A stretch of DNA of 64,000 nt from a virus: positions 124,001 through 188,000 of the IMG/VR virus record IMGVR_UViG_3300009104_001827; one strand, 5' to 3'. The notes under the pieces are model-generated. The model had not been told where the DNA came from and searched no databases. It was given only the letters and a program-made list of their open reading frames with translations. A program made the position numbers and the translations under genes. Shown in pieces: positions 8,983 to 46,557 of the stretch (position 1 is its first letter; each line of letters starts with the position of its first letter).

Positions 8983-8988
8983 CTAAAA

Positions 8989-9017: not shown

Positions 9018-9131
9018 GCCCGTTTGGATTTTCGAACGCCAACGTGTGATTTTTCAAACACCTATTAATCTAAATATTTATTATATATCTATACCCTATA
9101 TTAGTATTAGATTCCCCCTGAAAGAAAACTC

Positions 9132-9160: not shown

Positions 9161-9170
9161 TTAAGCCTAA

Positions 9171-9467
9171 ATGATTAAACCAGAAAACGATAAAGAGAAA
9201 TTCTTTTACATTCAGAACGGAAACTGGAGCTCTGTCGTCTCCGCAGAGGATAGAAGCTTCGCTTTAAAGAAGGCCTTTAATGAATGTTTAAAAGAGAAGG
9301 ACGCACACTTCATCTCCCCAATAGTCACCGTACTTGATATTGATATCTGTACCAAGGAATTGGCTTTGGAGGATGCCCTGAAGTTTATCCCCGTATTCGA
9401 AGCAGCCGAAGAAGCAGGGGAGGAAGACTTGTCGAAGTCTTTAAGAAGTATTTTTAGGGGTGATTAA
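9171..9467 (+). CDS. Hypothetical protein, early operon
   Basis: 98 aa, first gene of the operon leading to dNMP kinase, the sigma-like factor and SSB. The sequence has an NGNWSSVVSAEDRSFALKKA segment and an acidic C-terminus. No family is recognised. The near-leaderless sigma70-like promoter and its first place in the operon suggest early expression. Its end overlaps the next gene by 8 bp. Confidence 0.6.
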   Translation: MIKPENDKEKFFYIQNGNWSSVVSAEDRSFALKKAFNECLKEKDAHFISPIVTVLDIDICTKELALEDALKFIPVFEAAEEAGEEDLSKSLRSIFRGD

Positions 9468-10586: not shown

Positions 10587-10953
10587 ATATAACGCAATGG
10601 GAAATCTCACTAGAGACCCCGAAATAGTAGATGTATCAGACCAACACAAGGTTTGTAAATTCAGCATCGCAATTAATAACCCAATCAAGAAGACCGTCCT
10701 CTATATGGACGTTGAAGCTTGGAACAGAACGGCGGAAAATTGCCAAAAATACCTTACTAAAGGGTCCGCAGTAGCTGTAGATGGAAGGCTTGACTCCAAA
10801 AAGTGGACCACCGACAGCGGGCAAAATCGCTCGAAAATTTTCTGCGTAGCGGATAACGTGCATTTCGTCAGGCTAAAAAATCAAGACGAAGAGCAACCAG
10901 CAGGAACAGCGAACGCAGGGGAAGAAGAGGAAGAGGAAGAGGTTCCATTTTAA
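10576..10953 (+). CDS. ssb: Single-stranded DNA-binding protein (OB fold)
   Basis: 125 aa. The N-terminus NRYNAMGNLTRDPEIV and segments CKFSIAINN, VEAWNRTAENCQKYLTKGSA and VDGRLDSKKW are the standard SSB OB-fold strands. A short linker is followed by an acidic tail ending in EEVPF, a bacterial-type tip for binding replisome partners. It is preceded by a purine-rich GGAAGGA about 7 nt before the ATG. It coats ssDNA during replication and recombination. It shares one base with the next gene. Confidence 0.93.
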   Translation: MLNRYNAMGNLTRDPEIVDVSDQHKVCKFSIAINNPIKKTVLYMDVEAWNRTAENCQKYLTKGSAVAVDGRLDSKKWTTDSGQNRSKIFCVADNVHFVRLKNQDEEQPAGTANAGEEEEEEEVPF

Positions 10954-12035
10954 TGCCTCAACTAAATGTAAAATGCCCTATAAATAAATTATCCTTCGGA
11001 AACGTTTCAGTTAATATACTGAGAGAGCTCTTCAAGAAGGGGGTTGATGCGTGTGTATTTCCCACTGGCCAACCAGACCTGTCTAGCTATGACCAAGCCT
11101 CAAAGGAGTTCTACGAATGGTTAAGGAGCGCTATGGCTCGGCGTCTTACAGATGTCGACCGAAGTAATCCCACCTTAAATATTTGGCATATAAACGGAAG
11201 TGAGAACAAAATCTCAGACAAAAATACACTCTTAACGTTTCACGAAACCGGCCACCCTACGCCAGAAGAACTAAATTTAGCAAAACTATACGACAAGGTT
11301 TGCTTTGGCAGCAATTACGCAAGAGAGGCCTTTCAAGATTGCGGAGCCACAAATGTCACAAATGTCCCTATGGGATTAGACCCCGACTTATCCTGTCTCC
11401 CACAAAAGAAATCTAGCGACAATATTCATTTTGGGCTAATGGGAAAATGGGAAAGAAGAAAGCATACGTCAAAAATTATAAAATGCTGGGCAAAAACATA
11501 CGGTAACAACAATCGCTATGAATTATCATGCTGCGTAGGGAATAGTTTCCTTGAAGAAAGCCAGCTCGAATCCGCCAAACTAGAAGCCTTGGGGTCCCGG
11601 GAATTTAGCAATATTAACTTCCTTCCGTGGCTTCCAAAAAACTCCCAAGTTAACGACTTCATCAACTCAATAGACGTAGACCTCAGTGGCATGAGCGGAG
11701 CGGAGGGCTGGAACCTTCCAGCGTTCAACGCGACCGCACTAGGAAAATGGAGCATAGTACTGGACTGTACATCCCACAAAGATTGGGCCACGGAAGGGAA
11801 TTGCATCCTAATAAGCCCTTCAGGAACGGAAAGCATAGAAGACGGAATCTTCTTTACCAAAGAGTCCCCATTCAACAGGGGTGTTAAATTTACATTCAAC
11901 GAAGACTCCCTAATCAAGGCCATGGAGCTAGCGGAGCATAAATGCAAAACAGAAAACACCAAAGGGAAAGAACTCGCAACTCAATTCACCTACTCAAACA
12001 CTGTAGATAAATTACTGGATATTTGCTTCTCATAG
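10953..12035 (+). CDS. Glycosyltransferase (GT4-like)
   Basis: 360 aa. The pattern is a GT-B enzyme: an N-terminal sensing domain (KLSFGNVSVNILRELFKKGV), a mid-region TFHETGHPTPEEL / FGSNYAREAF / NVPMGLDPDL typical of GT4 interdomain motifs, and a C-terminal nucleotide-sugar domain with GLMGKWERRKHTSKI and a SGAEGWNLPAFNATALG segment that carries the E-x7-E-like acidic motif. It shares 1 base with ssb (TAATG). It adds to the many sugar transferases on this phage. The acceptor is unknown. Confidence 0.8.
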   Translation: MPQLNVKCPINKLSFGNVSVNILRELFKKGVDACVFPTGQPDLSSYDQASKEFYEWLRSAMARRLTDVDRSNPTLNIWHINGSENKISDKNTLLTFHETGHPTPEELNLAKLYDKVCFGSNYAREAFQDCGATNVTNVPMGLDPDLSCLPQKKSSDNIHFGLMGKWERRKHTSKIIKCWAKTYGNNNRYELSCCVGNSFLEESQLESAKLEALGSREFSNINFLPWLPKNSQVNDFINSIDVDLSGMSGAEGWNLPAFNATALGKWSIVLDCTSHKDWATEGNCILISPSGTESIEDGIFFTKESPFNRGVKFTFNEDSLIKAMELAEHKCKTENTKGKELATQFTYSNTVDKLLDICFS

Positions 12036-31386: not shown

Positions 31387-32907
31387 ATGATTTATTCCTA
31401 TGAATGCGAGCAACAATTACTTGCCGGCTTAATAAAACATCCAAAAATTTATTCAGAGATTGCCACCTTCATTTCCGAAGAGGACTTCTTCAGTCAATCC
31501 AGCCTAGTTAACAAAACTATTTTTTGCGTCCTAAGACAGTCCCTTAGCGCAGGAGAGCAAATAGATGAAGTGATCCTCTCCGAAAGGGTTCAGTCGCTCG
31601 GAATATCATTTGAGGACAACCTAAACCTCTCGGACTATATCAAGGCTCTTGCAATGAGAAAAGTTTCTGCGTCTTCCCTTATGGACACCGCTAGAGAGCT
31701 AAAGAAACTAACCGTCAAGCGAGGACTGTGCGACGCGGCAACGGATATTGTTGAAAAAATAACAGCCCTACCCAATACCACTCCTTACGACGAAATCGTA
31801 CAGTCCGCAGATCAAATTTATAACGATAAAATTAATCTATATCAAGAGGGGTCTGACGCCCCCGAAAATATTTTTGAAGAAATGGAGCAAACCATAGAGG
31901 CTAGAGGGAACGATCCCGTATCCGAATTTGGTTTCTTGGGTCCCCACGACTCCATAAACAATCTTTATGGATCACTCCTTAGGCCTGGAAACATCACTGT
32001 CCTTGTCGCTCGCTCAGGGGTGGGCAAAACCCAGTTTTGCATGGACTTCTGCACAAAAACCTCTGCAAAATACGACAACCTTACAGTGCTCCATCTAGAC
32101 AATGGGGAAATGAGTAAAGAAGAAATCATGAATCGACAGTGTGCCTCCATGTCTGACGTTCCGCTAAACTTGCTTGAGACGGGACAATGGAGACAAGCCG
32201 GAGCTGAGACGGTCAAAAAAGTAAGAGACACATTCAAGAAAATCAAAAACATGAAATTCTTCTACTATAACGTCGGGGGAATGTCTGTGGACAGCATGAT
32301 AAATACGGTTAGAAGGTTTTACTATTCTAGCGTCGGAAGAGGAAACAAGATGATATTAAGTTTTGATTATATTAAAACTACCTTTGAAAAATTTAACACC
32401 AAATCGGAATGGCAAGTTGTAGGAGAAATGGTAGATAAGTTTAAACGCCTAGTTCAAAAAGATATAGTATTCGAAGGAGAACCCATGATAGCCATGATGA
32501 CTAGTGTTCAAAGCAATCGGGCAGGCATTGTCGGAAACAGGAACTCAGACGCTTTAGTTGAAGATGAAAGCATAGTCTCCCTATCGGACCGCATCATACA
32601 ATTCTCCTCCCACCTCCTCAGTCTCAGGCAAAAAACCACAGACGAACTTCAAACTGAGCCCGCAGGATTCGGCTCGCATAGGCTTACATGCCTCAAGCAT
32701 AGACACTTAGGTCCAGAAGTGTATCGAGCGCTCAACCCCATTGAGCTCCCAGATGGATCAAAAAAGAAAAACTTCATCAATCTTGAAATATCAAACTTCA
32801 ACATAACAGACAAGGGAGATCTTCAGGACATGTCAGATCATATGCTGTTAAATAACGTAGAACTCGAACCCGACAACAACTTCTTTCGTGCGCCAGAAAT
32901 ATCATGA
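31387..32907 (+). CDS. dnaB: Replicative DNA helicase (DnaB family)
   Basis: 506 aa. The N-terminal domain has the DnaB helical bundle (YECEQQLLAGLIKHPKIYSE, EEDFFSQSSL, IDEVILSERVQ). The C-terminal RecA-like core begins near residue 195, with Walker A VARSGVGKTQ (207-216), HLDNGEMSKEEIMNRQ (DnaB motif with Asp/Glu) and a FDYIK Walker B near residue 325. An arginine-finger region follows in a SVQSNRAG segment. It unwinds the fork and loads with the adjacent primase, whose gene overlaps by 4 bp. The C-terminal motif is shorter than usual. No intein. Confidence 0.9.
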   Translation: MIYSYECEQQLLAGLIKHPKIYSEIATFISEEDFFSQSSLVNKTIFCVLRQSLSAGEQIDEVILSERVQSLGISFEDNLNLSDYIKALAMRKVSASSLMDTARELKKLTVKRGLCDAATDIVEKITALPNTTPYDEIVQSADQIYNDKINLYQEGSDAPENIFEEMEQTIEARGNDPVSEFGFLGPHDSINNLYGSLLRPGNITVLVARSGVGKTQFCMDFCTKTSAKYDNLTVLHLDNGEMSKEEIMNRQCASMSDVPLNLLETGQWRQAGAETVKKVRDTFKKIKNMKFFYYNVGGMSVDSMINTVRRFYYSSVGRGNKMILSFDYIKTTFEKFNTKSEWQVVGEMVDKFKRLVQKDIVFEGEPMIAMMTSVQSNRAGIVGNRNSDALVEDESIVSLSDRIIQFSSHLLSLRQKTTDELQTEPAGFGSHRLTCLKHRHLGPEVYRALNPIELPDGSKKKNFINLEISNFNITDKGDLQDMSDHMLLNNVELEPDNNFFRAPEIS

Positions 32908-33950
32908 GCCCATCAAAAATACAAGAAACGCTTATATCCTTGGGGTACAAGCTCTCAGACAGAGGGGTGTACTGGCAGACCAACGCCGTATTCAGGAACG
33001 GAGACAACCAAACCGCGCTACAAATATACAAAAACACTGGAGTCTGGAAGGACTACGTTCAGGACACCGCCTTCTCCCCCTTCAAGAGGCTGATTGAGGC
33101 TACGCTCGGGACTAACGATAAAAGCGTTGTAGATAAATATATCAACGATGAGGATGCCGGCCTACTCTATCTAAAAAAAACCACCGCAGCACCAAAGATA
33201 GAAATGGAAGAAATCTACGGAGACGATATGCTAGAGAGGCTACTTCCTCATTATAAATTTTATAACAACAAAGGTATATCCACTGAAATTTTACAAGAAC
33301 TTAAGGGCGGTCTCGCGACCTCGGGCCAACTCAATCAAAGATTTGTTTTTCCTATTTTCAATGATTTAAACCAAATCCATGGATTCTCCGGCAGGGATAT
33401 GTTAGCGAACCCAAGCAAGAGCAGACCAAAATGGAAACACATAGGAAAGAAGAAGAATTGGATTTACCCATTTTACGCAAGCGACAAAACAAAGGAAGCC
33501 ATAAGCGCTAGCAGAACAGTAATACTGGTCGAAAGCATAGGGGACGCATTAAACCTAAAAGAAAACTCCATTGACAATTGCCTAGTTGCCTTCGGTCTCA
33601 ATCTCTCAGGAAAACTGATATGCCACTTAGTATCGCTATCTTTAGATCAAATTGTGATTGCCTTTAACAACGACTCCGACAAGGCAGACAACAGAGGGCT
33701 AACTGCGGCGGTCAAGAGTTACCTTACCCTCCTACAAGTATTTGAAGCCGATAAAATCAAAATCTGCCTGCCGACGAAAAACGATTTTGGAGATATGAAT
33801 AAAGACGACTTTGCCGAGTGGAAGGCAAAAGCCAAGAATGTCACGAACGTCGATCAAAAACCGAACATCATAAACCTTATATCTGAGCTTGCCCCTCAGG
33901 GCAAGATTCCCAAAAAGCTACTTGCACGAAAAAAACTTTTAGAAAAATGA
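32904..33950 (+). CDS. DNA primase (TOPRIM)
   Basis: 348 aa, overlapping dnaB by ATGA. The N-terminal 60 residues match the DnaG zinc domain position (a GVYWQTNAVFRNGDN region) but contain no cysteines, so the zinc finger is lost. Residues 110-180 resemble the DnaG RNAP basic subdomain (LNQRFVFPIFNDLNQIHGFS and GRD). The TOPRIM fold follows: VILVESIGDALN with catalytic Glu210/Asp214, and IAFNNDSDKADNRG near residue 250 with the D-x-D pair. There is no C-terminal helicase-binding domain. It should synthesise RNA primers. Confidence 0.8.
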   Translation: MSPSKIQETLISLGYKLSDRGVYWQTNAVFRNGDNQTALQIYKNTGVWKDYVQDTAFSPFKRLIEATLGTNDKSVVDKYINDEDAGLLYLKKTTAAPKIEMEEIYGDDMLERLLPHYKFYNNKGISTEILQELKGGLATSGQLNQRFVFPIFNDLNQIHGFSGRDMLANPSKSRPKWKHIGKKKNWIYPFYASDKTKEAISASRTVILVESIGDALNLKENSIDNCLVAFGLNLSGKLICHLVSLSLDQIVIAFNNDSDKADNRGLTAAVKSYLTLLQVFEADKIKICLPTKNDFGDMNKDDFAEWKAKAKNVTNVDQKPNIINLISELAPQGKIPKKLLARKKLLEK

Positions 33951-35020
33951 GCGCCAAGAAGGTATATCTCTCAGCCAGCAGAATTAAGACCGCACAACAA
34001 TGCTCTTGGACCTATTGGTGCAAATATATCCTTAAACTGCCAGACAAATCCAACGACGGCGCCAGCAAGGGGTGGATCTGTCATTTAATTTTTGAGGTGC
34101 TTGGAAGAAAAGATCGAAACGACATTTTAAATCTAATACTCTCCGATGGCTCAATATGGGGCGTTCCGGCTATCGAACGTCTAGTACTATACCACGCCAA
34201 AAGATTAAACGTTAACACCGACGAACACCTCGGAGAGATCGACAGGATGATACTAAACGGCCTCAATTACGACTTTGGCGGGCAGCACAAGCCGGGACTA
34301 GAAAAAGAATTCTCCGAAAAAGACTTCCAACTTTCAGTGGACGAGGAAGGCATTAAGTATAACATAAGAGGCTTCATAGACAAGCTATTCCTCTACGAAG
34401 ATAAGCGGGCTATAATTAGGGACTTTAAAACCAGTAAGCAAAAATTCAAAGGGAAAGAGCTTACGGACAACATGCAGGACCTAATGTATTGCCTCGCCGT
34501 AAAAAAGATGTTTCCAGAATACAAGAGCGTATCAGAATTTCTTTTTCTTAAATTCGATCTAGATCGAGATTTATTCGGGAGCCCCGGCACAGGAGTAATC
34601 AGGATGGACGATATTAGCGATGACGCCCTAGAGGGGTTTGAGTATGAATTAACAGAAATCCAAAAATACCTAGAAACGTTTGACTCAAGCAAGGCCACCA
34701 GCAATTTTGCGGGGGCACAAGATTACCCCAAGGATGGAACCTTTGGCGGGCCGCTAGCGTGCGGGAAAGATGGATTTAAAAAGTGCAAAGGAGAGAACGT
34801 GCTAGATTCCTCCGGAAACCCAATTAAAGCCTTCATATGTGCCTTCAGGAAGCCCTTTAAGTATTATTCTCTTGTAGACGAAGGGGGGAATATTAAAAAA
34901 AGTGTATTTATTGATGACCTCGAAGGACTAAAGGAGTCCGCACTCGAAGGAGAAACTATCAAGGAAAAAGAATATGAAGGATGCCCATACTGGAAAAGAA
35001 AAGACAGGGGAGAACTATGA
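33947..35020 (+). CDS. Cas4/RecB-family PD-(D/E)XK exonuclease
   Basis: 357 aa, overlapping the primase gene by 4 bp (ATGA). The N-terminal LSASRIKTAQQCSWTYWCKY carries the first Cys of the iron-sulfur cluster seen in Cas4/AddB-type nucleases. The nuclease core is GFIDKLFLYEDKRAIIRDFK with the catalytic D...D-x-K at about residues 145-165, then NMQDLMYCLAVKKMFPEY (QxxxY motif). Three or four cysteines in the C-terminal region (LACGKDGFKKC; FICAF; GCPYW) may complete the 4Fe-4S site. It is probably a single-strand exonuclease for recombination. There is no CRISPR context. Confidence 0.8.
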   Translation: MSAKKVYLSASRIKTAQQCSWTYWCKYILKLPDKSNDGASKGWICHLIFEVLGRKDRNDILNLILSDGSIWGVPAIERLVLYHAKRLNVNTDEHLGEIDRMILNGLNYDFGGQHKPGLEKEFSEKDFQLSVDEEGIKYNIRGFIDKLFLYEDKRAIIRDFKTSKQKFKGKELTDNMQDLMYCLAVKKMFPEYKSVSEFLFLKFDLDRDLFGSPGTGVIRMDDISDDALEGFEYELTEIQKYLETFDSSKATSNFAGAQDYPKDGTFGGPLACGKDGFKKCKGENVLDSSGNPIKAFICAFRKPFKYYSLVDEGGNIKKSVFIDDLEGLKESALEGETIKEKEYEGCPYWKRKDRGEL

Positions 35021-35420
35021 ACAAGCCCCTTATGTTGGCACCGCGCTCCTATTCAAGAACCTTATTCTTTTAGCAAAAAGAATAGAGATATGTCCACATA
35101 CAAAAGAACGAGTCAAATACGGCGGGTATTGGTCGATTTTTTGCGGAGCAGTAGAAGAAAATGAAGCCCACTATATCGCTGCACACAGAGAGGTCTTCGA
35201 GGAGACTGGCCTAAATCTAGATAAAAAAATGTTTGTGCATCAAGAATTAGTTGAAGACCTACGCCTATATACTTATGAACTTGATGAAATGGTCCACCCT
35301 ACATTGAATTACGAACACACAGAGTGGGGGTATTTCAAAATAGATCAAATCAAAATAAGCCCCACCCCAATAGACGAAAAAATTGCGGAGAGGATACAGG
35401 GCTTCAGGCGGTCTGTGTAA
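34974..35420 (+). CDS. NUDIX hydrolase
   Basis: 148 aa, overlapping the nuclease gene by 47 bp; the first ATG in frame was taken because no other start is nearby. The NUDIX box is complete: GAVEENEAHYIAAHREVFEE followed by TGL, matching G-x5-E-x7-REVxEExGL (catalytic Glu pair). The YGGYWSIF strand precedes it. The substrate may be a nucleotide, a nucleotide sugar or a capped RNA. In this position, right behind replication genes, it may sanitise dNTPs or alter NAD-type nucleotides. Confidence 0.85.
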   Translation: MKDAHTGKEKTGENYEQAPYVGTALLFKNLILLAKRIEICPHTKERVKYGGYWSIFCGAVEENEAHYIAAHREVFEETGLNLDKKMFVHQELVEDLRLYTYELDEMVHPTLNYEHTEWGYFKIDQIKISPTPIDEKIAERIQGFRRSV

Positions 35421-35429
35421 TTATAAATA
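35415..35429 (+). promoter_or_regulatory. GTGTA-type promoter candidate of the DUF1501 gene
   Basis: GTGTAATTATAAATA is directly followed by ATG 35430, overlapping the last codons of the NUDIX gene. Confidence 0.6.
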
Positions 35430-36704
35430 ATGAAAAGGAGAACCTTTATAGAGGTTGGCGCAGCAACTGGAATTGGCAGTCTCACCTTGCCCCAATTGCT
35501 TGCGTCAAATAAAAGAGCACTTAATGATAATAAATCGATTATCGTTGTTTGGATGAATGGAGGGCCGTCACATCACGAAACCTTTGACCCTAAACCATAC
35601 GCACCCCAACCATTCAAGGGGCACTTTGAGGCGATCCCTACAGTTGCAGACGGGATACAGCTCCCCGAGCATCTAGTTAAGTGCGCGGACTGCATGGACA
35701 AATGGGCCATAATTAAGGGGCTATACCACGACAACAACAACCATAGCTCTGCGCATGAAATTATGCACTCTGGCTACAAAGCCAAGGAGCCTAATCAGCA
35801 ACAAAATTTTTACCCCAGCATAGGATCAACAATTGCGGAACATGCCAAGAGAGACGGCGAAGTTCCCCCATATGTTGTTATCCCCAACCACAGCAGAGGA
35901 ACTCGTCCCGGATATTTGCCTCATGAATTCGGGCCTTATGAAACAAAGACTCGCCCTTCTTCTAGCGAAACATACAAAGACACGAATTTCACACTCAACG
36001 AATCACTAACCATTAATAGAGTTGACAATAGAGGAGATTTATTAAAATCCTTCGATAACTTTAGGTCGGTTTTAGATAAATCTGGAATGACGAAGTCCAT
36101 TGATGAATTCAACATAAAAGCTCAAGGACTACTTACTAGCGGGCAAGCAGCAAAGGCCTTCGATATTGAAAAAGAATCTACATTCACAAAAGATTTGTAT
36201 GGCCCAGGATTCGGCCGTGATTTACTACTCGCAAGGCGCTTAGTTGAAAACGGCGTAAAAATGGTTACCGTAAAAACTCCCTTTGGCTGGGACACTCATC
36301 AAGCGAGCGACAAAAGCATGGGAAACAAGAACCTGCCCCAGTTCGACGTGGCGTTTAGCGCGTTAATTAACGACCTTCATTCCAGAGGCATGATGGAAGA
36401 CGTTATGGTTGTAGCTTGGGGTGAATTCGGTAGAACCCCAAAGATTAATGCCAATGGAGGCAGAGACCATTGGTCTCGCTCAATGGCTGCCGCCATCGCA
36501 GGAGGAAAGGTGAGCGGGGGCGTTGTCGCCGGAGAAAGCGACAAAACTGGCTCAGAGCCCATAACAGGAATAACCCCTCCAGACGTACTAGTTACGCTTT
36601 ATGACCACATGGGAATAAACCCAAAACACAATTACTATGATCACAGCGGGAGACCTCACCCAATAATTAACTCAGGTAGAATACTTACAGAATTATTCGT
36701 ATAA
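35430..36704 (+). CDS. DUF1501 family protein with Tat signal
   Basis: 424 aa. The N-terminus MKRRTFIEVGAATGIGSLTL is a twin-arginine (RRxF) signal with a hydrophobic core, so export through Tat is expected. The body has the family's markers: WMNGGPSHHETFDPKP, NNHSSAHEIMHSGY, GFGRDLLLARRLVENGVKMV, GWDTHQ, VAWGEFGRTP and GRDHWSRSMAAAIAGG. These resemble alkaline phosphatase-superfamily sulfatase-like folds. DUF1501 genes are abundant in Planctomycetota and Verrucomicrobiota, usually beside DUF1800; no phage role is known to me. Its neighbours here are a vWA/TSP3 protein and ClpP. It probably came from the host and may hydrolyse host polysaccharide sulfates or act in the envelope. Confidence 0.88.
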   Translation: MKRRTFIEVGAATGIGSLTLPQLLASNKRALNDNKSIIVVWMNGGPSHHETFDPKPYAPQPFKGHFEAIPTVADGIQLPEHLVKCADCMDKWAIIKGLYHDNNNHSSAHEIMHSGYKAKEPNQQQNFYPSIGSTIAEHAKRDGEVPPYVVIPNHSRGTRPGYLPHEFGPYETKTRPSSSETYKDTNFTLNESLTINRVDNRGDLLKSFDNFRSVLDKSGMTKSIDEFNIKAQGLLTSGQAAKAFDIEKESTFTKDLYGPGFGRDLLLARRLVENGVKMVTVKTPFGWDTHQASDKSMGNKNLPQFDVAFSALINDLHSRGMMEDVMVVAWGEFGRTPKINANGGRDHWSRSMAAAIAGGKVSGGVVAGESDKTGSEPITGITPPDVLVTLYDHMGINPKHNYYDHSGRPHPIINSGRILTELFV

Positions 36705-36713
36705 TATAAACAA

Positions 36714-38678
36714 ATGAAAAATAAAAAACTCAAACAACTATCCATTATTAATTTAATTATAGGATATATAACATTAATGCTATTTAGCTTATTAGTAATA
36801 CTGAACCAACCGACAGAATTGATGGCTGAAGATCAAGACCTTACAGTGGTCAAGGCTTCTGACGAAGATAAAACGGAAGCCCTAGAGCCGCCAGACGAAG
36901 TTAGCGCAAAAGAAAAAGAAATAATCTATATAGACGGGCACCCAACAACATATATTAGAGACAATAGTATAGGCGTAGATAGGCTATCAGGTGTAATTAT
37001 TGATAACGTACCCAACAGACTGGTCGAAAGGGACGACCTAAGGGGTAATATCGCGATAGCAAGAGACACTAGAAATGAAAACCTATTAATAGATAGGCGC
37101 GATAATATAATTATTGATGAAACAATTGATAGACACAATTATAGCAATAGGACTGGCGCTAGCGTCGGTGATAGGCTATATGGGGTTCGTAATAACTCTT
37201 TTGTTGATAATAAAAACAATAGAAGAGATCGGTTGGTTGAAGACATTGATGCTGGAATTCTAGATAGGAGGCTAAATGAGGCAAACCCCTTCGAGGAAAA
37301 CACTGAAGAAGTCGGCGAAGACTTTGGATTAGACGGAAACGATTTCGCTGGAGTTACGCTAGCAGAAGACGATGAAGGTGAGTTAGATTTTGATATTGAC
37401 GATTTCAAAAATGCAGAAATGGGCTCAAAAGGCTACGGAGTCGATAAAGGAAACCTGTACGCCTACAACTACCCCAGCCAGGGCGTTGGAGCTGGTATTG
37501 GAAATGCCGGTGTTGGCGCCGCAGCAGGATTTGCGGGCATTGGCGCCGGAGTTGGACAGGCAGTACTCAACGGAGAAACCGTCCCTACCCTAGGAGGAGT
37601 AGGAACATCTCCCATCATTCCCGGCAATCTGGAAGTTACCCCCGAAAACGACAGAGACGGAGATGGGCTTCCCGCCTCAGTTGAATCTCAAATTGGAACC
37701 AACCCAAACAATGCCGATACAGATGGTGACGGCCTAAGCGATGGAGACGAAGTGTTTAGCTATTCTAACCCCCTAGATAAAACAAGCACCCCCCTCGATT
37801 CCGGCTCGGCTCCCCTCCCCCAATTTGGCGGGGTTGGCGGCTTAGTCAGTGGAGCAGGATCAGGTGTTGCGGCCGGCTTGGTAACCGGCATGGTTAAGAA
37901 GCAACTCGGAATTGGAATTGCCCCCAAGGGGTGCGCCGAGTGCGGAGGTGAGTGCAAAGGGCACGGACACGGGCACGGACACGGAAAGCACGAATACGAT
38001 TTGCCGCCCGATGGAGCGTTGCACATTATGATCCATGTCGACGGAAGTGGGAGTATTCTCGCAACCAGGCGCCAGCTGGACATCATGAAGGACACTCTTA
38101 TGAAGGACGCGCTACTTCCCTACTATAATAATGACGAGTCTCTATACAATAAGAGGGTGACCATTATAGATAACTCGGGAGAACGAACGCTGAGATTCTA
38201 TACGGAAGCAGCAAAGAAAGACAATGTTCTAGCGATTGCGTTCCAAGATGAAGCGGCCCCCGATTATCACCTACCCAATTTTAATAAGACCCCACAAAAT
38301 GCGTATAGCGCAGACTTGGGCAAGCTTAGATCGAACCTGAACGGATACGGCGGATTATACAGAGGCATAATGTTCCAAGTGGACAGGGGACGCACTTTTG
38401 CAAAGTCGTTCAAGGAGCTTGTCGAGTGCGCGTGGAATGGAGAGGGGTACCTGGAAAAACCGGGGACGAACCTCAAGAAGTATCACAGAGACAACAACCT
38501 GCACAATATCAAGAATAAGAACGGAATCGTTTTCAGTGATGAGTATCACGCGAAGTCTGAGGGTGATCCACAATACTATTTGGACTTGATCTTCAAGGCT
38601 TCGAAACGAGTGGGTCTGGACCTTCAAGCAAAGGGCGCTGGACTTACGGACGGTAAATATAACCAAAAGATTGATTGA
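36714..38678 (+). CDS. Membrane-anchored TSP3/vWA-like surface protein
   Basis: 654 aa. One N-terminal membrane anchor (residues 11-30) is followed by an Arg/Asp/Asn-rich region (80-200) with DRR and RNE units, then an acidic stretch. Residues 255-290 are a Gly/Ala-rich segment (GAGIGNAGVGAAAGFAGIGA) that may insert in membrane or stack. Residues 311-350 carry calcium-binding thrombospondin-type-3 units (NDRDGDGLPASVESQIGTN, NADTDGDGLSDGDEV). A His/Gly run (GHGHGHGHGK, 416-425) may bind metal. The last 220 residues look like a vWA-type domain with MIDAS motif D443-G-S445-G-S447. It stands behind the DUF1501 gene (10-bp gap). A TATAAT lies 8 nt before the ATG. Confidence 0.6.
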   Translation: MKNKKLKQLSIINLIIGYITLMLFSLLVILNQPTELMAEDQDLTVVKASDEDKTEALEPPDEVSAKEKEIIYIDGHPTTYIRDNSIGVDRLSGVIIDNVPNRLVERDDLRGNIAIARDTRNENLLIDRRDNIIIDETIDRHNYSNRTGASVGDRLYGVRNNSFVDNKNNRRDRLVEDIDAGILDRRLNEANPFEENTEEVGEDFGLDGNDFAGVTLAEDDEGELDFDIDDFKNAEMGSKGYGVDKGNLYAYNYPSQGVGAGIGNAGVGAAAGFAGIGAGVGQAVLNGETVPTLGGVGTSPIIPGNLEVTPENDRDGDGLPASVESQIGTNPNNADTDGDGLSDGDEVFSYSNPLDKTSTPLDSGSAPLPQFGGVGGLVSGAGSGVAAGLVTGMVKKQLGIGIAPKGCAECGGECKGHGHGHGHGKHEYDLPPDGALHIMIHVDGSGSILATRRQLDIMKDTLMKDALLPYYNNDESLYNKRVTIIDNSGERTLRFYTEAAKKDNVLAIAFQDEAAPDYHLPNFNKTPQNAYSADLGKLRSNLNGYGGLYRGIMFQVDRGRTFAKSFKELVECAWNGEGYLEKPGTNLKKYHRDNNLHNIKNKNGIVFSDEYHAKSEGDPQYYLDLIFKASKRVGLDLQAKGAGLTDGKYNQKID

Positions 38679-38703
38679 CTTTTTGCCTCCCCGACAACAC
38701 AAT
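38675..38703 (+). promoter_or_regulatory. Possible sigma70-like promoter of the ClpP-like gene
   Basis: TTGACT (38675-38680), 17-nt spacer, CACAAT (38698-38703), then 7 nt to the ATG at 38711. The -10 is poor. TTG at 38675 is taken as part of this promoter and not as a start codon. Confidence 0.45.
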
Positions 38704-38710
38704 ATATTGT

Positions 38711-39448
38711 ATGTCAAACAAAAGTAAGGACCGAACACCAGAAGAGATAGAGGCTAATGTCGAAAAATTAAAAGCCGAAGCATCAAAAGCTCAGGCTGAA
38801 GCTCGGAAAGTTATAGCTGAAGCGGATACCGCAGAGACAAGAGCTCAAAAGGAAAGGTTTGAGTTCGAAAGGTATCAGGAAGAAAGAAAAAAAAGGCTTT
38901 CCGTTGATAGGGAAAATCGCGTATATCGATTCAGTGGTGGGGTAGATAAATCCTCAGTTGAAAAATGCAGAGACGCCCTAACTGAATGGTCGAGATGCTC
39001 TCCAGGGTGTGATATAGAAATTGTATTTGCCTCCCCTGGCGGAGGAATAACTGCGGGGTTTGAATTATTTGACTACATCCAGCAATTAAGATTTGCGGGT
39101 CACAAAATCACAACAGGATCTTTAGGTATGGCTGCATCTATGGCGGGCATATTGCTTCAAGCTGGCGAACATCGCTGGATTGGGCACCAATCTTGGATAC
39201 TAATACATCGGGCAGCCTTTGGGGCCATTGGTAAAACTTTTGAAATTGAAGATGAGGTGGAATTAATTAAAAGAATTGAAGAAAGGATAATTGAAATTTT
39301 CACCTCTAGATCAAATCTTACAAAATTAAAAATTAAAAGAAATTGGAACAGAAAAGATTGGTGGATAAATGCAGACGAAGCGCTAGACATGGGTCTTGTT
39401 GACGAAGTTAGAGGCAAACTGCCAGAGGGAAAAAACATCGGCGGCTAG
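38711..39448 (+). CDS. ClpP-like serine protease
   Basis: 245 aa from ATG 38711; a longer TTG start would lie inside the promoter. Residues 8-64 form a charged coiled coil not found in ClpP proper. The ClpP fold starts near residue 70: FASPGGGITAGFELFDYI (substrate-binding glycine loop), the nucleophile Ser143 in GMAASMAG, His166 in ILIHRAA and Asp216 in NRKDWWINADEALDMGLVDE. All three catalytic residues are present. Phages mostly use ClpP folds as prohead proteases. Here the free form, with a ClpC-type ATPase 4.6 kb downstream, suggests a phage ClpCP machine. The substrate and partner remain inference. Confidence 0.8.
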   Translation: MSNKSKDRTPEEIEANVEKLKAEASKAQAEARKVIAEADTAETRAQKERFEFERYQEERKKRLSVDRENRVYRFSGGVDKSSVEKCRDALTEWSRCSPGCDIEIVFASPGGGITAGFELFDYIQQLRFAGHKITTGSLGMAASMAGILLQAGEHRWIGHQSWILIHRAAFGAIGKTFEIEDEVELIKRIEERIIEIFTSRSNLTKLKIKRNWNRKDWWINADEALDMGLVDEVRGKLPEGKNIGG

Positions 39449-39544: not shown

Positions 39545-39573
39545 TTGACAATTAAGCTTAAATCGGGTAGACT
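39545..39573 (+). promoter_or_regulatory. sigma70-like promoter of the polymerase operon
   Basis: TTGACA (39545-39550), 17-nt spacer, TAGACT (39568-39573). ATG 39593 is 19 nt downstream, giving a leader of about 12 nt without Shine-Dalgarno. Confidence 0.7.
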
Positions 39574-39592: not shown

Positions 39593-40318
39593 ATGATTCC
39601 TCTATTTACTTCTCACTACAGCATTGGCAAAAGCATATTAACGCTCGACCACCCAGACAAGCAAACCGAGGGCGGCTCAACCAGCGTATTTAGTATCGCT
39701 CAAAAGAACAACCTAAAAGAAATATTTTTGGTAGAAAACTCACTGACCGGATTTCCTCAGGCGCTCACGATATCAGCGGAGCTAGGAATACAGTTATGCT
39801 TCGGCCTTTTGCTCAAAATCTGCGAGCAAGACCATAAGATTATCGTCTTCGCAAAAAACTCAAAAGGATGCAAAAGATTAAATCAAATATACAGCGAAGC
39901 GTTCGCGGGAGATAAAGAATGTATCTCAACCGAAAACTTAAAAAAATTCTGGAACAGTAAGGAGCTTATGCTCTGCATACCGTTTTACGACTCTTTTATA
40001 TATAAAAATATAATGACGTTTGACAGTTGCACGCCAGACCTGTCCGCGTTCAGTCCGCTATTTTTTCTCGAAGAAAACAACCTACCTTTTGACAATCTCG
40101 TTCGCCAGAAGGTCGAAGCATATGCCGAATCAAGAGGGCATGACACGCAGTTAGTTAAATCCATTTACTACGAAAACCAAGAAGACGCAGAAGCCTTGCA
40201 GGTCTATAAATGCATATGCAGCAGAAGGTTCGGAAAGAGCTCTCTGTCAAAACCGAATCTAGACCACTTCGGAAGTGATGAATTTAGCTTCGAGAGCCTA
40301 CTTAAGAAGAAAAAATGA
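39593..40318 (+). CDS. Stand-alone, degenerate PHP domain of DNA polymerase III alpha
   Basis: 241 aa from ATG 39593; an upstream TTG at 39545 belongs to the promoter. The order FTSHYSIGKSIL, LKEIFLVENSLTGFPQALTI, SAELGIQLCFGLLL, HKIIVFAKNSKGCKRLNQIY is that of the PHP domain at the N-terminus of DnaE/PolC. The metal-binding pattern is lost: HxHxxYS has become TSHYS, TDH has become ENS, and the GxE motif has become GLL. The polymerase core downstream lacks a PHP domain, so this gene fills the missing part in trans, probably a structural role. The last 4 bp overlap the SET gene (ATGA). Confidence 0.7.
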   Translation: MIPLFTSHYSIGKSILTLDHPDKQTEGGSTSVFSIAQKNNLKEIFLVENSLTGFPQALTISAELGIQLCFGLLLKICEQDHKIIVFAKNSKGCKRLNQIYSEAFAGDKECISTENLKKFWNSKELMLCIPFYDSFIYKNIMTFDSCTPDLSAFSPLFFLEENNLPFDNLVRQKVEAYAESRGHDTQLVKSIYYENQEDAEALQVYKCICSRRFGKSSLSKPNLDHFGSDEFSFESLLKKKK

Positions 40319-40827
40319 AATACAAGCTATACAATTCAGGGAAAACCTTCCTTGACAGATCCCCTATTTCAGGCAGGGGCGTTTTCGCCTCTGAACCCTT
40401 TCGCAGGGGAGAACTCATAGAGCAATGCCATTTCATTATACCAGAACAAGATAAAGGCGGCAGAGATAAGGAACTCTTGAGATACATGTTTGCCATAACC
40501 AATGAAGAATCAATAAAATCCTCCAAGGAAACATTCCTTAAGATTTTTCTAGGAAATCTAATCGACAACAAGAAGGACGCGGGCAGCGAGCGCTCACAAG
40601 CAATAAAGAACTGCGTTGAGCTTGGATATAAATCGCTAGACAAACTATTCGATTCGGCAGTTGTACTCGGAAACGGAATGATATTTAATCATTCAGACAA
40701 ACCAAATATTGATTATTGTTTTAATGAAGACGACTTCTGCTTCGACTATAATGCATCTAAAGATATACAACAAAACGAAGAGCTCGTAATTAATTACGGC
40801 AACCCAGAAAGGGGAGATATAAAATGA
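40315..40827 (+). CDS. SET-domain protein methyltransferase
   Basis: 170 aa. It has the SET core in order: SGRGVFASEPFRRGELIE (residues 19-36, SAM site start), an inserted helical region (about 60-105), VVLGNGMIFNHSDKPNIDYC (N125-H126, SAM-binding NHS), FDYNASKDIQQNEELVINYG (GEEL-like and the NYG end). SET enzymes methylate lysines of proteins. It lies inside the PHP-exonuclease-polymerase operon with ATGA overlaps on both sides. Tight coupling suggests that a replisome protein, or a host nucleoid protein, is the target. Bacterial viruses rarely place SET genes here. Confidence 0.85.
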   Translation: MKYKLYNSGKTFLDRSPISGRGVFASEPFRRGELIEQCHFIIPEQDKGGRDKELLRYMFAITNEESIKSSKETFLKIFLGNLIDNKKDAGSERSQAIKNCVELGYKSLDKLFDSAVVLGNGMIFNHSDKPNIDYCFNEDDFCFDYNASKDIQQNEELVINYGNPERGDIK

Positions 40828-41465
40828 AAGAATCGCTATTAAGATTTAAAGACAAACAGAAATATCTTATTTTTGATTATGAAACCTGCAACCTCAACCT
40901 CATGTCAAAAGATAATAAACCTTGGCAGCTTGCATTTCTTTTAGTTCAGGGCAATAAAATATTAGACAAAGCCGACTACATACTCTCTTGGCCAGACATC
41001 AACGTCTCTAAAGACGCAGCCAGAATAACAGGCTTTTCCTACGCCAAGTATAATAAGAGAAAAAGCTGCCCGCTGAAGGCGTTAGATCACTTCGAAAAAT
41101 ATTTATACGATAAAAAAATCCTAACCGTCGGACACAACATACTCGGATTCGACTTATATATCCACAATATCCACCGCAAGCTTTGCGGGAAAACCTCCGA
41201 CTACTCATATATAGAAAATACGCTAGACACCGTGTGCCTTGGGAGGGCTATTAAAGCGGGTATAAAGAGGCAGAAGGGGACAGACCTACTATCGTGGCAG
41301 TATAGGCTATTAAACCACCGCCAAAAAGGCCTGAAGGTAACACTAAAGCAATGCTGCAAGGACTACGGAATAAACTACAATCCGGAAAAATTGCATGATG
41401 CGCTTTACGACATAGAGAAAAACAACGAAGTATTTCAAAAAATGCTATGGGAGGTGGAGGTATGA
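40824..41465 (+). CDS. DEDDh 3'-5' exonuclease (proofreading)
   Basis: 213 aa. The DEDDh motifs are visible: YLIFDYETCN (Asp18 and Glu20), TVGHNILGFDLYIHN (Asp110) and HDALYDIEKN (His191 and Asp196). The fold is that of DnaQ/RNase T enzymes. The stand-alone exonuclease is one gene away from a polymerase that has no exonuclease domain. It should proofread the alpha core, as epsilon does. It overlaps the SET gene by 4 bp and the polymerase start by 4 bp. Confidence 0.85.
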   Translation: MKESLLRFKDKQKYLIFDYETCNLNLMSKDNKPWQLAFLLVQGNKILDKADYILSWPDINVSKDAARITGFSYAKYNKRKSCPLKALDHFEKYLYDKKILTVGHNILGFDLYIHNIHRKLCGKTSDYSYIENTLDTVCLGRAIKAGIKRQKGTDLLSWQYRLLNHRQKGLKVTLKQCCKDYGINYNPEKLHDALYDIEKNNEVFQKMLWEVEV

Positions 41466-44017
41466 TATCCAACTTCAAAAAATACAAAGACTGCATGCCC
41501 CCAGGTGTACTGCTTCCGAATATTAAGATCAATAAGAAATATTACGACGAGCTCGAAATCCCGAGCGATTCATCCAATTTCGACTTCCTTAGACACTTAT
41601 GCCTAAAGGGAGTAAAAGAAAAAAATATTAACAAGAAAAACGATGACGAAAAGCAGACCTATTATTCTAGAGCAAAAATGGAACTCAAAATCCTTGACGA
41701 GCTTGGGTTTATCGACTACATTTTACTTAACTGGGATATTCTTGAGTATTGTCATAATAACAATATTCCTACTGGGCCTGGCCGTGGCTCGGCGGCTGGC
41801 TCGCTTGTTCTATATCTGATAGGCGTAACAAAAATAGATCCGGTAGAACATAATCTCTTTTTTGAGAGATTTGTCTCTAAAAGCAGGGCAAAATCCACAG
41901 AACATAAGGGAGTAAAATACCTTGACGGAGGACTACTGGCGGATATTGACAATGATATAGCCTACGAGCATAGGCAAGAAGTAATAAAATACATCGAGGG
42001 AAAACACCCAAATAGCACTGCAAAGATATTAACTTTAAATACGCTTAGCAGCAAACTCTGCCTTAGGGAATGCGGGAAAATAGTAGGAGAATTAGACGAG
42101 CAGGAAATTTCACTAATTACGGACGAGATTCCTAAGCAATTTGGCAAAGTAGACCCTCTTAGCGATTCCTATAATAAAAGCGAAAAAATTAAGGAATGGG
42201 CCGACGCCAATCCGCGCATATTCGGTGTTGCGAAAAAACTTGAAAACCTGAACAAGAACACGGGAGTTCATCCCTCCGGCATCGCAATTGCCGCAGAAAA
42301 TATCTCAAACATATGCCCAATACAAAAGACGAAAGACGGAAGCCTTATTACCGGGTACGATATGAATTGGGTTTCAGAATTAATGGTTAAATTCGACATA
42401 CTCGGACTTCGAACATTAAGCGTTATCAATACGACCTGCAAGCGAGTGGGCATATCGGCTGAGGACATAGACATAAATGACGAAGGGGTCTATCTCCCGT
42501 TGCAAGACCTTCGCCACCCTCATGGGCTTTTCCAAATTGAGGCAGATACAGACTATAAGGTTTGCAAGAAAATTCAGCCCAAAAATATAGAAGAGCTGAG
42601 CGCAGTACTGGCAATCGCTCGCCCAGGTGCATTGGACTTCTTAGATAATTATCACAATCACGTTTCCACGGGCAACTTCCAAAGCATACATCCCTTCTTC
42701 GACGACATCCTCTCGCACACCGGCGGCATCCCACTGTATCAGGAGCAGTTAATGCAAATGGCCGTAAAGGTTGGATTCACGCTTGACGAATCGGAGCAAA
42801 TAAGAAGAATAGTGGGTAAAAAGAAAATCAAAGAAATGCCGATATGGAAAGAAAAAATTAAAGATAAAATATCCGAAAACGGAGTTGATAAAGAAGCCGG
42901 AGACGTCCTATGGAGAGTGGCAGAAGATAGCGCAAACTATTCGTTCAACAAGAGTCACTCAATCGCATACTCCACTCTATCAGCCTGGACAACATATCTA
43001 AAATTCAAACACCCCCAACAGTTCTTCTTGTCATTGCTTCAGATGACTAGATTTGAGCCCTGCCCTCAAGACGAGATTGGCAAAATCAGTCAAGAGCTAT
43101 CTTCTTTTGGCATTAAACTATTGCCTCCAAATTTGGCAAAGTCAAAAATGGACTTCTCGATAGAGGGTCCAGATATACGCTATGGATTAAATAGCATTAA
43201 GGGAATTAGCGAAAAGTCGCTTAAGTCTTTAATGGAATTCAGAAAAGAGAGCGGAACCTCAAAATATGACATGTTCATGTCTGCCAAGCAGGCCGGACTG
43301 AATATAGGTACGGTTTGCGCCCTCATCCAGGCCGGAGCTCTCTCCAATTACAACGGCAGCAGGCCGCTGCTAGTATTGGAGGCTCAAGTATTCAACTCCC
43401 TGACAGAGAGGGAGAAAAGAAACTTTGTCGAACTAGGCCCAAAGTTTGAGTATAGATTGCTAGATTCTATAGTCCACGCAAGAGACAACGATCTTGTCGG
43501 GGACGACGGGAGACCCCTCTTTAAGGAGTCTAGATTTCAGACCTTCAAGAAAAAGTACGAGCCCTATAAGCAAATTTACATAAAAAATAGCAAGTCTCAG
43601 AGTTTCGCAGACTGGTATTTTGAGAATCAGCTATTAGGATATTCTTATAGCCAAAACCTAAGGTCTGTATTCTCAAGAAAACCTGAAACATTTGTAAATT
43701 ATAGCGACTACGAATTAATGGGCAAGAATTCCGCAGGAAGAATTATAGGGATGGTGCAGGATTCTTTTGTGAGGACCAGTAGAAGCGGAAATAAGTATAT
43801 GAAAATTGAAATTGCAGACGAGAGAGGAGTATTTCAATGCATGCTATGCAATAGTCGAAGAGGTAACAGGCTGGACGAATTCTTGGAAGACAACGACGTT
43901 CCAGATAAAAACAGTATAGTAATTGCCTATGGCTCCAAAGGGGAAGACGCCTTCTTTCTGGAAGACATGAAAATTATGGATGAGCAAATTTACATGAAGC
44001 TCGCAGACCTCAAATAG
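41462..44017 (+). CDS. dnaE: DNA polymerase III alpha-type core without PHP domain
   Basis: 851 aa. The start at 41462 is chosen for its purine-rich GGGAGGTGGAGG just upstream; a start five codons earlier is in frame. The palm begins near residue 100: TGPGRGSAAGSLVLYLIG (PolIII catalytic palm), then the metal-binding pair Asp161/Asp163 in LLADIDND. The fingers carry HPSGIAIA and LSAVLAIARPGALDFL. GIPLYQEQLMQMAVKVGF and NYSFNKSHSIAYSTLS follow, then a helix-hairpin-helix (IRYGLNSIKGISEKSL), and an OB-fold with GRIIGMVQDSFVRTSRSGNK. The N-terminal PHP found in all DnaE/PolC is missing. Chromosomal-type Pol III in a phage is rare, and the split makes it rarer. Confidence 0.92.
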   Translation: MISNFKKYKDCMPPGVLLPNIKINKKYYDELEIPSDSSNFDFLRHLCLKGVKEKNINKKNDDEKQTYYSRAKMELKILDELGFIDYILLNWDILEYCHNNNIPTGPGRGSAAGSLVLYLIGVTKIDPVEHNLFFERFVSKSRAKSTEHKGVKYLDGGLLADIDNDIAYEHRQEVIKYIEGKHPNSTAKILTLNTLSSKLCLRECGKIVGELDEQEISLITDEIPKQFGKVDPLSDSYNKSEKIKEWADANPRIFGVAKKLENLNKNTGVHPSGIAIAAENISNICPIQKTKDGSLITGYDMNWVSELMVKFDILGLRTLSVINTTCKRVGISAEDIDINDEGVYLPLQDLRHPHGLFQIEADTDYKVCKKIQPKNIEELSAVLAIARPGALDFLDNYHNHVSTGNFQSIHPFFDDILSHTGGIPLYQEQLMQMAVKVGFTLDESEQIRRIVGKKKIKEMPIWKEKIKDKISENGVDKEAGDVLWRVAEDSANYSFNKSHSIAYSTLSAWTTYLKFKHPQQFFLSLLQMTRFEPCPQDEIGKISQELSSFGIKLLPPNLAKSKMDFSIEGPDIRYGLNSIKGISEKSLKSLMEFRKESGTSKYDMFMSAKQAGLNIGTVCALIQAGALSNYNGSRPLLVLEAQVFNSLTEREKRNFVELGPKFEYRLLDSIVHARDNDLVGDDGRPLFKESRFQTFKKKYEPYKQIYIKNSKSQSFADWYFENQLLGYSYSQNLRSVFSRKPETFVNYSDYELMGKNSAGRIIGMVQDSFVRTSRSGNKYMKIEIADERGVFQCMLCNSRRGNRLDEFLEDNDVPDKNSIVIAYGSKGEDAFFLEDMKIMDEQIYMKLADLK

Positions 44018-44028: not shown

Positions 44029-46557
44029 ATGATGGAGCACAAACCAAACTTTACCCCCAGAGCGCAGAGGGCAATAGAAATATCAAAAAAAACCGCCAAA
44101 GACATGGGCTCGAAGACCGTTGCGCTCGAGCATCTTTTCCTGGGCATACTGCACCTCAAAGCAGGAGTAATCCACGAAGTGCTCTTGGGAGTGGGAATCA
44201 GCCCTGCTAATCTTATTACTGCCATTTCCAATAGAATAAAGGAAGAGGCAGTCTTCCACGCCTCTGAAGACACTCCCGAATTTGATCCAAAATTCAAGCA
44301 GGTACTAGAAATAGCTGCACTAATTAGCAAAAATTTTGGGCATGATTATGTAGGGATAGAGCACATGCTTTTAGCAATGCTAAAATATGACGGTTCTCCG
44401 ATTAATGAGTATTTCAAACTCCTCGACATACCCGAAGATCTGATTATTGAACAAATTAAAAACTATTTTCAGCTTACAGTGCCGGAGGTCCCGATCATAG
44501 GAGGGTTCCACCCTTTCTTTATAAATCCCCAAGGAAACCCCCAGAACCAAGCAGGGGCAGAGCCCTCCCAGAGTAAGCCCCGGCGCCAAACGATGATCGA
44601 TAAGTACGGGGTTAATTATGTGGAAATGGCGGCAGATAATAAATTTGACGAAATAATAGGAAAAGAATCCGAAATCCTGGAGGTATGTGAAATTTTATGC
44701 AGGAGAATAAAAAACAACCCAGTACTCCTGGGAGACCCTGGCGTTGGGAAGACTGCAATCGTAGAGGGCCTCGCGCAGTCTATAGTAAAAAGCTCCGCAC
44801 CAGAACACCTGCTTGATAAGCAGATATACGGGATAGATCTAGCCTCTATGATTGCGGGAACCAAATACAGGGGGCAATTTGAAGAAAGGCTCAAAGGAAT
44901 GCTTGAAGAAGCGATAGAAGACGATAGGATAATTTTATTCATTGACGAGCTGCACACCTTAGTCGGCGCTGGCAGCGCAGAAGGAACAATGGATGCGGCA
45001 AACATATTAAAACCCCTCCTTTCAAAAGGAGCCATAAGATGCATTGGAGCGACAACAAACAAAGAATACAAAAAAAGCATACTTAAAGACGGTGCGCTTG
45101 ATCGAAGATTTCAGCCCGTAACATGCAGGCAACCAAGCGAAAAGGAAACCCTAGAGATACTTAAGGGGGTAAAACATAAATATGAGGAATTCCATTACGT
45201 AGACTACGACCAAGAGTGCCTTAAGCTCATAGTAGATTTGGCAGCAAGATACATTCCGTCAAAGCAATTCCCTGACAAAGCGCTAGACATATTAGATCAA
45301 GTAGGCGCAAAAGTAAAAATAAAATCTTTTGTCCGGCCTAAGAAAAGCAAGGCAATGGAGCTAGAACTGGAAGACCTCATGAGAGAAGAAGATATCCTAC
45401 GAGGTCAAGGAATAGATTGCTCAGGAGTAAACAAAAAACAAGAAGACCTTCTAGAAAAATACTCAAAGTCCCTGCAGAACTGGGCAAACAAAAACTTTAA
45501 AAACAGAAAACGAATAAGGCCTCAGGATATTTACAGAACCGTCTCCCAACTCACCAACGTGCCCATGGCAGAACTCTCAAGGACTGACGCCCAGAGATTT
45601 CTCAACCTTGAAGATAAAATGAAATCAAAGATTATTGGGCAAGACCATGCGGTCGCGACAATCTGCAAAGCAATACTACGCTCAAAATCTGGACTCAGAA
45701 ATGAGAGCAAACCAATCGGCAGCTTTCTGCTTCTAGGTCAGACCGGTTTGGGTAAAACCTATACCGCAAAAACGATAGCCTCATCCCTTTTTGGGAGTAG
45801 TTCTGAAATAATTGCGGTAGACATGAGCGAGTATTCTGAAAAAATTTCCAGCACAAGACTATCGGGCGCTGCACCAGGCTACGTTGGCTACGAAGAGGGT
45901 TCCGCGCTAATAGACAAAATCACAAAAAACCCATATAGCGTAGTATTATTTGATGAAATAGAAAAGGCACACCCAGACGTAATCCAGTCTCTACTACAGG
46001 TCCTCGAGGAGGGTAGATTAACAGACGGACTAGGAAGGGTTGGCGATTTTACAAATAGCATAATTATCCTAACAGGCAACATAGGCTCGGAAATTGCCGG
46101 ACAGGGCGGTAGTATGGGATTCGCAGCAGCAGAAGACCAGCATTCTATTATTGTTGACAAAATTACCGAAAAGGCGAGCCAAGCACTTAGGCCAGAGTTT
46201 GTAAACAGGATAACAGAAGTTATAGTTTTTAATTCATTTAGTAAAGAAGATTTTTCCAAGATATTAAACTTAGAGCTCAAACCATTAAGGAAGAAACTCA
46301 AGGAAAGAGACATATCCCTACGCATAGGAAAGAATCTAAGAAGTTCAATTATAGAGAAAACTCAAGATTCAAACTATGGCGCCAGGCCTGTAGCAAGAAT
46401 AATTCAAAAAGAAATAGAGGACGAACTGGCTGAACTCCTAATTAACGGGAAGCTCAAAGACGGCGAAAAAATCTCTTTCACTGGGTCCGTCGGAGAAGTA
46501 AGTTATTCCATTACGGCAAAACCGGCTTCTGAGGATCAAACGCCTCCTCTTCCTTAA
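44029..46557 (+). CDS. ClpC/ClpA-type AAA+ unfoldase
   Basis: 842 aa. An N-terminal double Clp repeat (FTPRAQRAIEISKKTAKDMG; ALEHLFLGILHL; GIEHMLLAMLKYDG) binds adaptors or substrates. NBD1 has Walker A GDPGVGKT (235-242) and Walker B LFIDELHTLVGAG. NBD2 has GQTGLGKT (570-577) and VVLFDEIEKAHPD. The sequence SMGF (695-698) lies in the tripod loop that docks on ClpP in ClpC/ClpA. Both ATPase sites and the arginine-finger region are intact. It probably feeds proteins to a ClpP-like protease (phage 38711 or host). It overlaps the next convergent gene by 47 bp. Confidence 0.9.
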   Translation: MMEHKPNFTPRAQRAIEISKKTAKDMGSKTVALEHLFLGILHLKAGVIHEVLLGVGISPANLITAISNRIKEEAVFHASEDTPEFDPKFKQVLEIAALISKNFGHDYVGIEHMLLAMLKYDGSPINEYFKLLDIPEDLIIEQIKNYFQLTVPEVPIIGGFHPFFINPQGNPQNQAGAEPSQSKPRRQTMIDKYGVNYVEMAADNKFDEIIGKESEILEVCEILCRRIKNNPVLLGDPGVGKTAIVEGLAQSIVKSSAPEHLLDKQIYGIDLASMIAGTKYRGQFEERLKGMLEEAIEDDRIILFIDELHTLVGAGSAEGTMDAANILKPLLSKGAIRCIGATTNKEYKKSILKDGALDRRFQPVTCRQPSEKETLEILKGVKHKYEEFHYVDYDQECLKLIVDLAARYIPSKQFPDKALDILDQVGAKVKIKSFVRPKKSKAMELELEDLMREEDILRGQGIDCSGVNKKQEDLLEKYSKSLQNWANKNFKNRKRIRPQDIYRTVSQLTNVPMAELSRTDAQRFLNLEDKMKSKIIGQDHAVATICKAILRSKSGLRNESKPIGSFLLLGQTGLGKTYTAKTIASSLFGSSSEIIAVDMSEYSEKISSTRLSGAAPGYVGYEEGSALIDKITKNPYSVVLFDEIEKAHPDVIQSLLQVLEEGRLTDGLGRVGDFTNSIIILTGNIGSEIAGQGGSMGFAAAEDQHSIIVDKITEKASQALRPEFVNRITEVIVFNSFSKEDFSKILNLELKPLRKKLKERDISLRIGKNLRSSIIEKTQDSNYGARPVARIIQKEIEDELAELLINGKLKDGEKISFTGSVGEVSYSITAKPASEDQTPPLP

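Follow-up and report, generated by a model that had tools for sequence, protein, structure and literature searches.

PHP and the bacterial replicative polymerase form a single chain in nearly all described cases, and the role of catalytically dead PHP domains, as structural support or as a platform for the exonuclease, is debated. The DNA polymerase III (Pol III) core of E. coli (alpha-epsilon) combines an inactive PHP, fused to alpha, with a separate DEDDh proofreader, epsilon; this PHP, though dead, binds epsilon and stabilises Pol III, and a C-terminal alpha-binding tail is the defining trait of a bona fide epsilon subunit (PMC3666897). Where the PHP of a bacterial polymerase is inactive, an active DnaQ-type proofreader goes with it (PMC12926913). 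Among phages, Pbunavirus (Pseudomonas phage sortsol) has the gene of a DEDDh exonuclease immediately ahead of that of a C-family polymerase, and joined to it; PHP is still part of this polymerase, and there is no SET gene. Here we analyse a 64,000-nucleotide stretch (the window; bases 124001-188000 of the 211-kilobase IMG/VR phage record IMGVR_UViG_3300009104_001827) in which four genes of the same direction, at 39593-44017, encode a degenerate PHP protein, a SET-domain protein, a DEDDh exonuclease and a Pol III alpha core devoid of PHP:

39593..40318, + strand: stand-alone PHP-domain protein of 241 residues whose metal ligands are lost (phrog_405, AlphaFold2, Foldseek, hhalign)
40315..40827, + strand: predicted SET-domain protein-lysine methyltransferase of 170 residues, an optional gene in the slot between PHP and exonuclease genes (PF00856, motifs, vSET structure, patchy presence)
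40824..41465, + strand: DEDDh 3'-5' exonuclease of 213 residues, epsilon/DnaQ-like, without the long C-terminal tail (RNase_T, phrog_192)
41462..44017, + strand: C-family DNA polymerase III alpha core of 851 residues, without PHP (Pfam, phrog_405)

We propose, with a probability of roughly 0.72, that these genes specify a three-piece Pol III core in which a dead PHP protein docks the polymerase core and the exonuclease in trans, the SET protein being an accessory. A preliminary description of the locus had reported a four-gene operon with 4-bp overlaps, and this organisation is real: its coordinates were confirmed, as were the ATGA overlaps at all three junctions. The polymerase start at 41462 is preceded by GGAGGTGGAGGT and yields the junction found in most relatives; with an alternative, longer start, at 41447, the overlap would be 19 bp. 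Directly upstream of the PHP gene, a sigma-70-like match (TTGACA-17-TAGACT, 39545..39573, + strand) is a candidate operon promoter by sequence, although the match is weak (14 such matches were found, against 10.4 expected in shuffles).

The identity of the first gene product as a PHP protein is strongly indicated by profile comparisons and structure prediction. The gene matches positions 65-265 of phrog_405, the fused phage Pol III family of 1190 positions, at 3e-8. The protein alone gives a weak Pfam PHP match (9e-4) that falls short of the cut-off, which several relatives do pass; searched with an alignment of 37 sequences, the PDB yields Taq Pol III alpha at 2e-4, and hhalign comparison with canonical phage PHP domains returns a probability of 97%. 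Its AlphaFold2 model (predicted local distance difference test, pLDDT, 86; predicted template modelling score, pTM, 0.84) is closest in Foldseek to the Pol III alpha of E. coli, PolC, Taq and M. tuberculosis, with TM values of 0.65-0.78, and other PHP proteins rank below. Modelled as a single chain, the protein is therefore predicted to have the PHP fold, and not the dissimilar fold that would speak against the identity first proposed for it. The metal site, in contrast, is gone. Not one of 37 aligned homologues has retained the histidine ligands; throughout the family other residues stand in for the HxH pair and for the D..H close to the C terminus, and at most one position of the motif HHDHEH[C/H]DH, as defined in PMC12926913, looks retained. 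Fold, profiles and ligand alignment thus all bear out the claim of a separate PHP-like gene without metal ligands. Despite the absence of catalytic residues the gene is under strong purifying selection, with a ratio of non-synonymous to synonymous substitution rates (dN/dS) of about 0.02-0.09, as would be expected of a structural part.

The fourth gene encodes the complement of this domain. In Pfam, the polymerase core matches DNA_pol3_alpha (8e-61), the finger domain (9e-31) and HHH_6 (6e-15), and gives no PHP match over its 851 residues; it covers positions 326-1088 of phrog_405 at 6e-162. The fused family is therefore covered in two pieces, 65-265 and 326-1088, which places the break at the PHP/palm boundary. 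The core has the palm and finger domains of the C family and its three aspartates (D161, D163 and D312, conserved wherever aligned in the 116 non-redundant operons used for operon analyses), and lacks the N-terminal PHP on the same chain, just as the preliminary description had it. In a search for cultured relatives, the PHP protein had no tblastn match among 50,697 phage records, and no match of the polymerase exceeded about 35% identity. One relative, L251, has a polymerase core of 1113 residues (8493-11831) with an N-terminal extension of about 250 residues of unknown family, where PHP normally sits; the extension is unrelated, and is neither an intein nor a re-fused PHP.

The third gene product matches RNase_T at 8e-8 and phrog_192, a polymerase exonuclease subunit family, at 2e-16. 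Residues D18, E20, D110 and H191 are present in 116 of the 116 operons and D196 in 115, so that the DEDDh exonuclease announced for this operon stands. The last catalytic aspartate is followed by only 17 residues, and the alpha-binding C-terminal tail found in E. coli epsilon is absent from the phage enzyme.

Scans of IMG/VR returned 126 confirmed stretches with the polymerase query and at least 570 with the PHP query. All of the 116 operons have separate genes for PHP, exonuclease and core, arranged in the order PHP-exonuclease-polymerase, and no fused form was seen. Wherever a sampled relative encodes a PHP-less core, a stand-alone PHP gene belongs to the same cluster, and no second, fused or active PHP was found elsewhere in 11 long records. 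The evolutionary distances of the three proteins co-vary (r 0.95-0.97), more closely than those involving SET (0.79-0.85). The split PHP is a real and widespread variant of the Pol III core, borne by a large group of phages that is uncultured. Metagenome-assembled genome contigs from GTDB that carry the operon (L279-L285) are assigned to unrelated bins (Woesebacteria, Halobacteriovorax, Verrucomicrobiales, Lokiarchaeota and Flavobacteriaceae), and are probably binned phage contigs.

A split at the same PHP/palm boundary is present in the Terapinvirus Gordonia phages (LittleFella gp69/gp70, Terapin gp65/gp67 and LilyPad gp65/gp66; loci L270, L276 and L277), where a PHP gene of about 319-337 residues and a PHP-less core of about 801-811 residues are adjacent or overlapping; in Terapin a small open reading frame lies between them. 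Unlike the present family, the Terapinvirus PHP keeps HxH and the other ligand positions and is apparently intact, and neither an exonuclease gene between PHP and core nor a SET gene is found. The two split groups form separate, well supported clades, and the Terapinvirus cores are sister to the fused polymerase of mycobacteriophage Troll4, a grouping that makes their split independent and not of common origin with the present one. The C-family polymerase of group 2.2 jumbo phages, a minimal Pol III alpha, is also broken into separate proteins, but inside the catalytic core and with the genes distant from each other; PHP and other Pol III domains are not kept, and a B-family polymerase is present (PMC7824862). 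The arrangement had been put forward as undescribed. A description of a trans-acting PHP, or of SET in a replicase operon, was not found in the searched literature, whose scope did not extend to subscription journals and preprints, and to that extent the statement holds; the Terapinvirus records, which are public, show that the PHP/core split is not unique to the present group, although no discussion of it was found in the same literature.

In the proposed three-piece replicase, the core (41462-44017) would synthesise DNA, and the PHP protein would dock on its palm/thumb in trans, in the manner of the PHP domain of a fused Pol III alpha. Once docked, it would stabilise the core and position the DEDDh exonuclease (40824-41465), which would proofread in partnership with PHP and core. 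The stand-alone PHP is thus probably a scaffold that acts in trans, and by analogy the phage parts list fits the bacterial rule of an inactive PHP with an active DnaQ-type enzyme, with PHP being its own protein. Two observations weigh against this proposal: the exonuclease lacks the tail that E. coli epsilon uses for PHP binding, so that its partner contact, if any, must differ from that of E. coli, and no beta clamp that could confer processivity on the replicase was recognised in the 11 records. The loss of the metal site, together with an invariant PFYDSF motif that does not typify fused PHP domains, would also suit a free protein with another function, such as a regulator or a decoy. We consider this improbable, since the PHP gene is clustered with every sampled PHP-less core, a second PHP is missing from the long records, the fold resembles the PHP of Pol III alpha more than it does other PHP proteins, and distances co-vary with those of the polymerase (r 0.96). 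Split polymerases are at times sequencing errors (PMC3919608), but the notion that a normal fused polymerase was broken here by assembly or frameshift has next to no likelihood: the exonuclease gene, and sometimes SET or other genes, intervene between PHP and core, and roughly one hundred separate contigs show the order PHP-exonuclease-polymerase, a recurrence that neither chance nor misassembly can explain.

The SET gene, placed between PHP and exonuclease by the preliminary description, is genuine by motif and by its PF00856 match (6e-15). It carries GRGVFA, NHS..PN and ELVINYG, and the corresponding motifs GxG, NHS..PN and ELxxxYG are invariant or nearly so in 12 SET proteins of the slot; its AlphaFold2 model is moderate (pLDDT 69), with vSET as the nearest solved structure. 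To judge by its sequence it is an intact protein-lysine methyltransferase, and methyl transfer is predicted. Small SET-domain proteins likewise occur in other viruses (vSET of chlorovirus PBCV-1, and those of Stenotrophomonas phages Moby and Ps15), but outside replicase operons; that of Moby lies amid hypothetical genes, and vSET acts on eukaryotic histone H3.

In contrast to the three replicase genes, SET is patchily distributed. It is present in 17 of the 116 operons, a sample into which one scan aimed at SET had brought extra carriers, and absent from the site in the other 99. The polymerase tree, built by a quick method, requires no fewer than 11 gains or losses of SET. Of the close relatives L009 and L012, one lacks precisely the stretch between the SET start and the start of the exonuclease gene, and the two starts share AATGAAAGA, a possible recombination point on the evidence of the sequence. 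In relatives, the slot between PHP and exonuclease holds IMP dehydrogenase-like, JmjC/Cupin_8, cupin and HNH genes, as well as unidentified ones. The JmjC/Cupin_8-type protein occupies it in L033 (6476-7348) and L049 (5475-6356), and an IMP dehydrogenase/GMP reductase-like gene in L233 (6758-7735, by Pfam) and, by visible sequence similarity, in L236, L244 and L247. Degenerate SET-like proteins are found in the slot of L052 (6918-7349), without the NHS motif, and L256 (6683-7114).

SET had been described as locked inside the replisome operon, and this does not hold, given its absence from 99 operons, its repeated gain or loss and a slot shared with unrelated genes. A search for the same gene order, which the preliminary description had called for, upheld PHP-exonuclease-polymerase in all 116 operons, but not SET, whose absence from related phages at this site it had itself counted as evidence against its proposal. 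The patchy presence, the clean start-to-start absence and the other cargo of the slot rule out SET as a fixed replisome component. It is a facultative accessory cargo gene, dispensable for replicase function, as its place in a slot of changing content indicates. In the tree, most slot SETs cluster by themselves and another three make up a second group; because they group together, SET appears resident in the slot, yet often lost or exchanged. Its dN/dS of 0.07-0.16 reflects purifying selection and indicates that the gene is in use.

What the enzyme modifies can be approached from this pattern. Our best guess is that SET methylates a DNA-bound or replication-fork protein, of host or phage, early in infection. 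That it is a dedicated modifier of the replisome, methylating a lysine of the polymerase, PHP, exonuclease or single-stranded DNA-binding protein (SSB) to tune replication, seems unlikely to us. The clades formed by slot SETs, the purifying selection and the translational coupling of SET to the exonuclease gene would agree with such a role, as would SET genes that adjoin recombination or repair genes in two other phage lineages; its rarity among the operons, the near-identical phages that cleanly lack it (L009 versus L012) and the unrelated genes in the same slot do not. Moreover, no lysine column of PHP, exonuclease or polymerase tracks SET (77 columns; best p 1e-4, uncorrected both for multiple columns and for relatedness), and no column in these alignments is private to SET carriers; methylation of the replisome is unsupported. 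Rather unlikely too, and slightly more so, is the combined proposal that the dead PHP of a three-part replicase is an assembly platform in trans for core and exonuclease and that slot SETs, as SET enzymes in the recombination/repair clusters of those two other lineages might, methylate a fork protein to regulate it. A passenger with a target outside replication, in a host nucleoid, translation or defence protein, is a distinct though tentative possibility. The slot is common to IMP dehydrogenase-like, JmjC/Cupin_8, cupin and HNH genes, and the prokaryotic and viral SET enzymes studied act on DNA-associated proteins, such as Lys27 of histone H3 for vSET and MC1-alpha for Go1-SET (PMC3980110). 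No HU/IHF or archaeal-type histone gene was found as a target in the 11 phage records, which makes a host protein the likelier DNA-associated target. Against a passenger, the SET clade is confined to one slot, and among 50 records searched only three that lack a slot SET carry one elsewhere.

Other observations concern possible substrates and the surroundings of SET genes. The window encodes a phage SSB at 10576-10953 (PF00436, 5e-23), a candidate substrate. In a second group of about 14 contigs (L149, L153, L154, L165, L170, L171, L173, L177-L179 and others), the SET gene (L149:5731-6483) has intact motifs and is flanked by genes for an SbcD-like nuclease on one side and an SbcC-like nuclease on the other, an arrangement conserved down to about 54% identity of the neighbours. 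In a third group of about 8 (L133, L135-L140 and L146), it overlaps a SNF2-family helicase gene (L136:5959-6390). The embedding of SET near DNA recombination or replication genes may be a trend, and if so a DNA-related substrate stays plausible.

The operon belongs to a conserved cluster of DnaB-like helicase, primase, exonuclease-family gene, PHP, variable slot, exonuclease, polymerase and Clp ATPase, whose other members in the window are:

31387..32907, + strand: DnaB-like replicative helicase (phrog_19, 8e-37; conserved upstream in 68 loci)
32904..33950, + strand: DNA primase (phrog_47, 1e-17; 70 loci)
33947..35020, + strand: phage exonuclease-family protein (phrog_1218/phrog_69, 1e-13; 71 loci)
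44029..46557, + strand: ClpA/ClpB-like ATPase, the downstream neighbour (phrog_4871, 6e-226; at the same offset in 77 of 112 loci)

Four genes between the exonuclease-family gene and PHP (34974-39448), a placement uncommon among sampled relatives, include those for a DUF1501 protein, a TSP3-repeat protein and a ClpP-like protease of the head-maturation type.

Two independent lineages split at one boundary suggest that PHP is a modular subunit of the replicase. With a separate PHP protein encoded in hundreds of IMG/VR contigs, the role of PHP becomes testable by adding or omitting a single subunit. Protein lysine methyltransferases, in turn, join the accessory genes of phage replication clusters, and the near-identical phages that lack SET provide natural controls.

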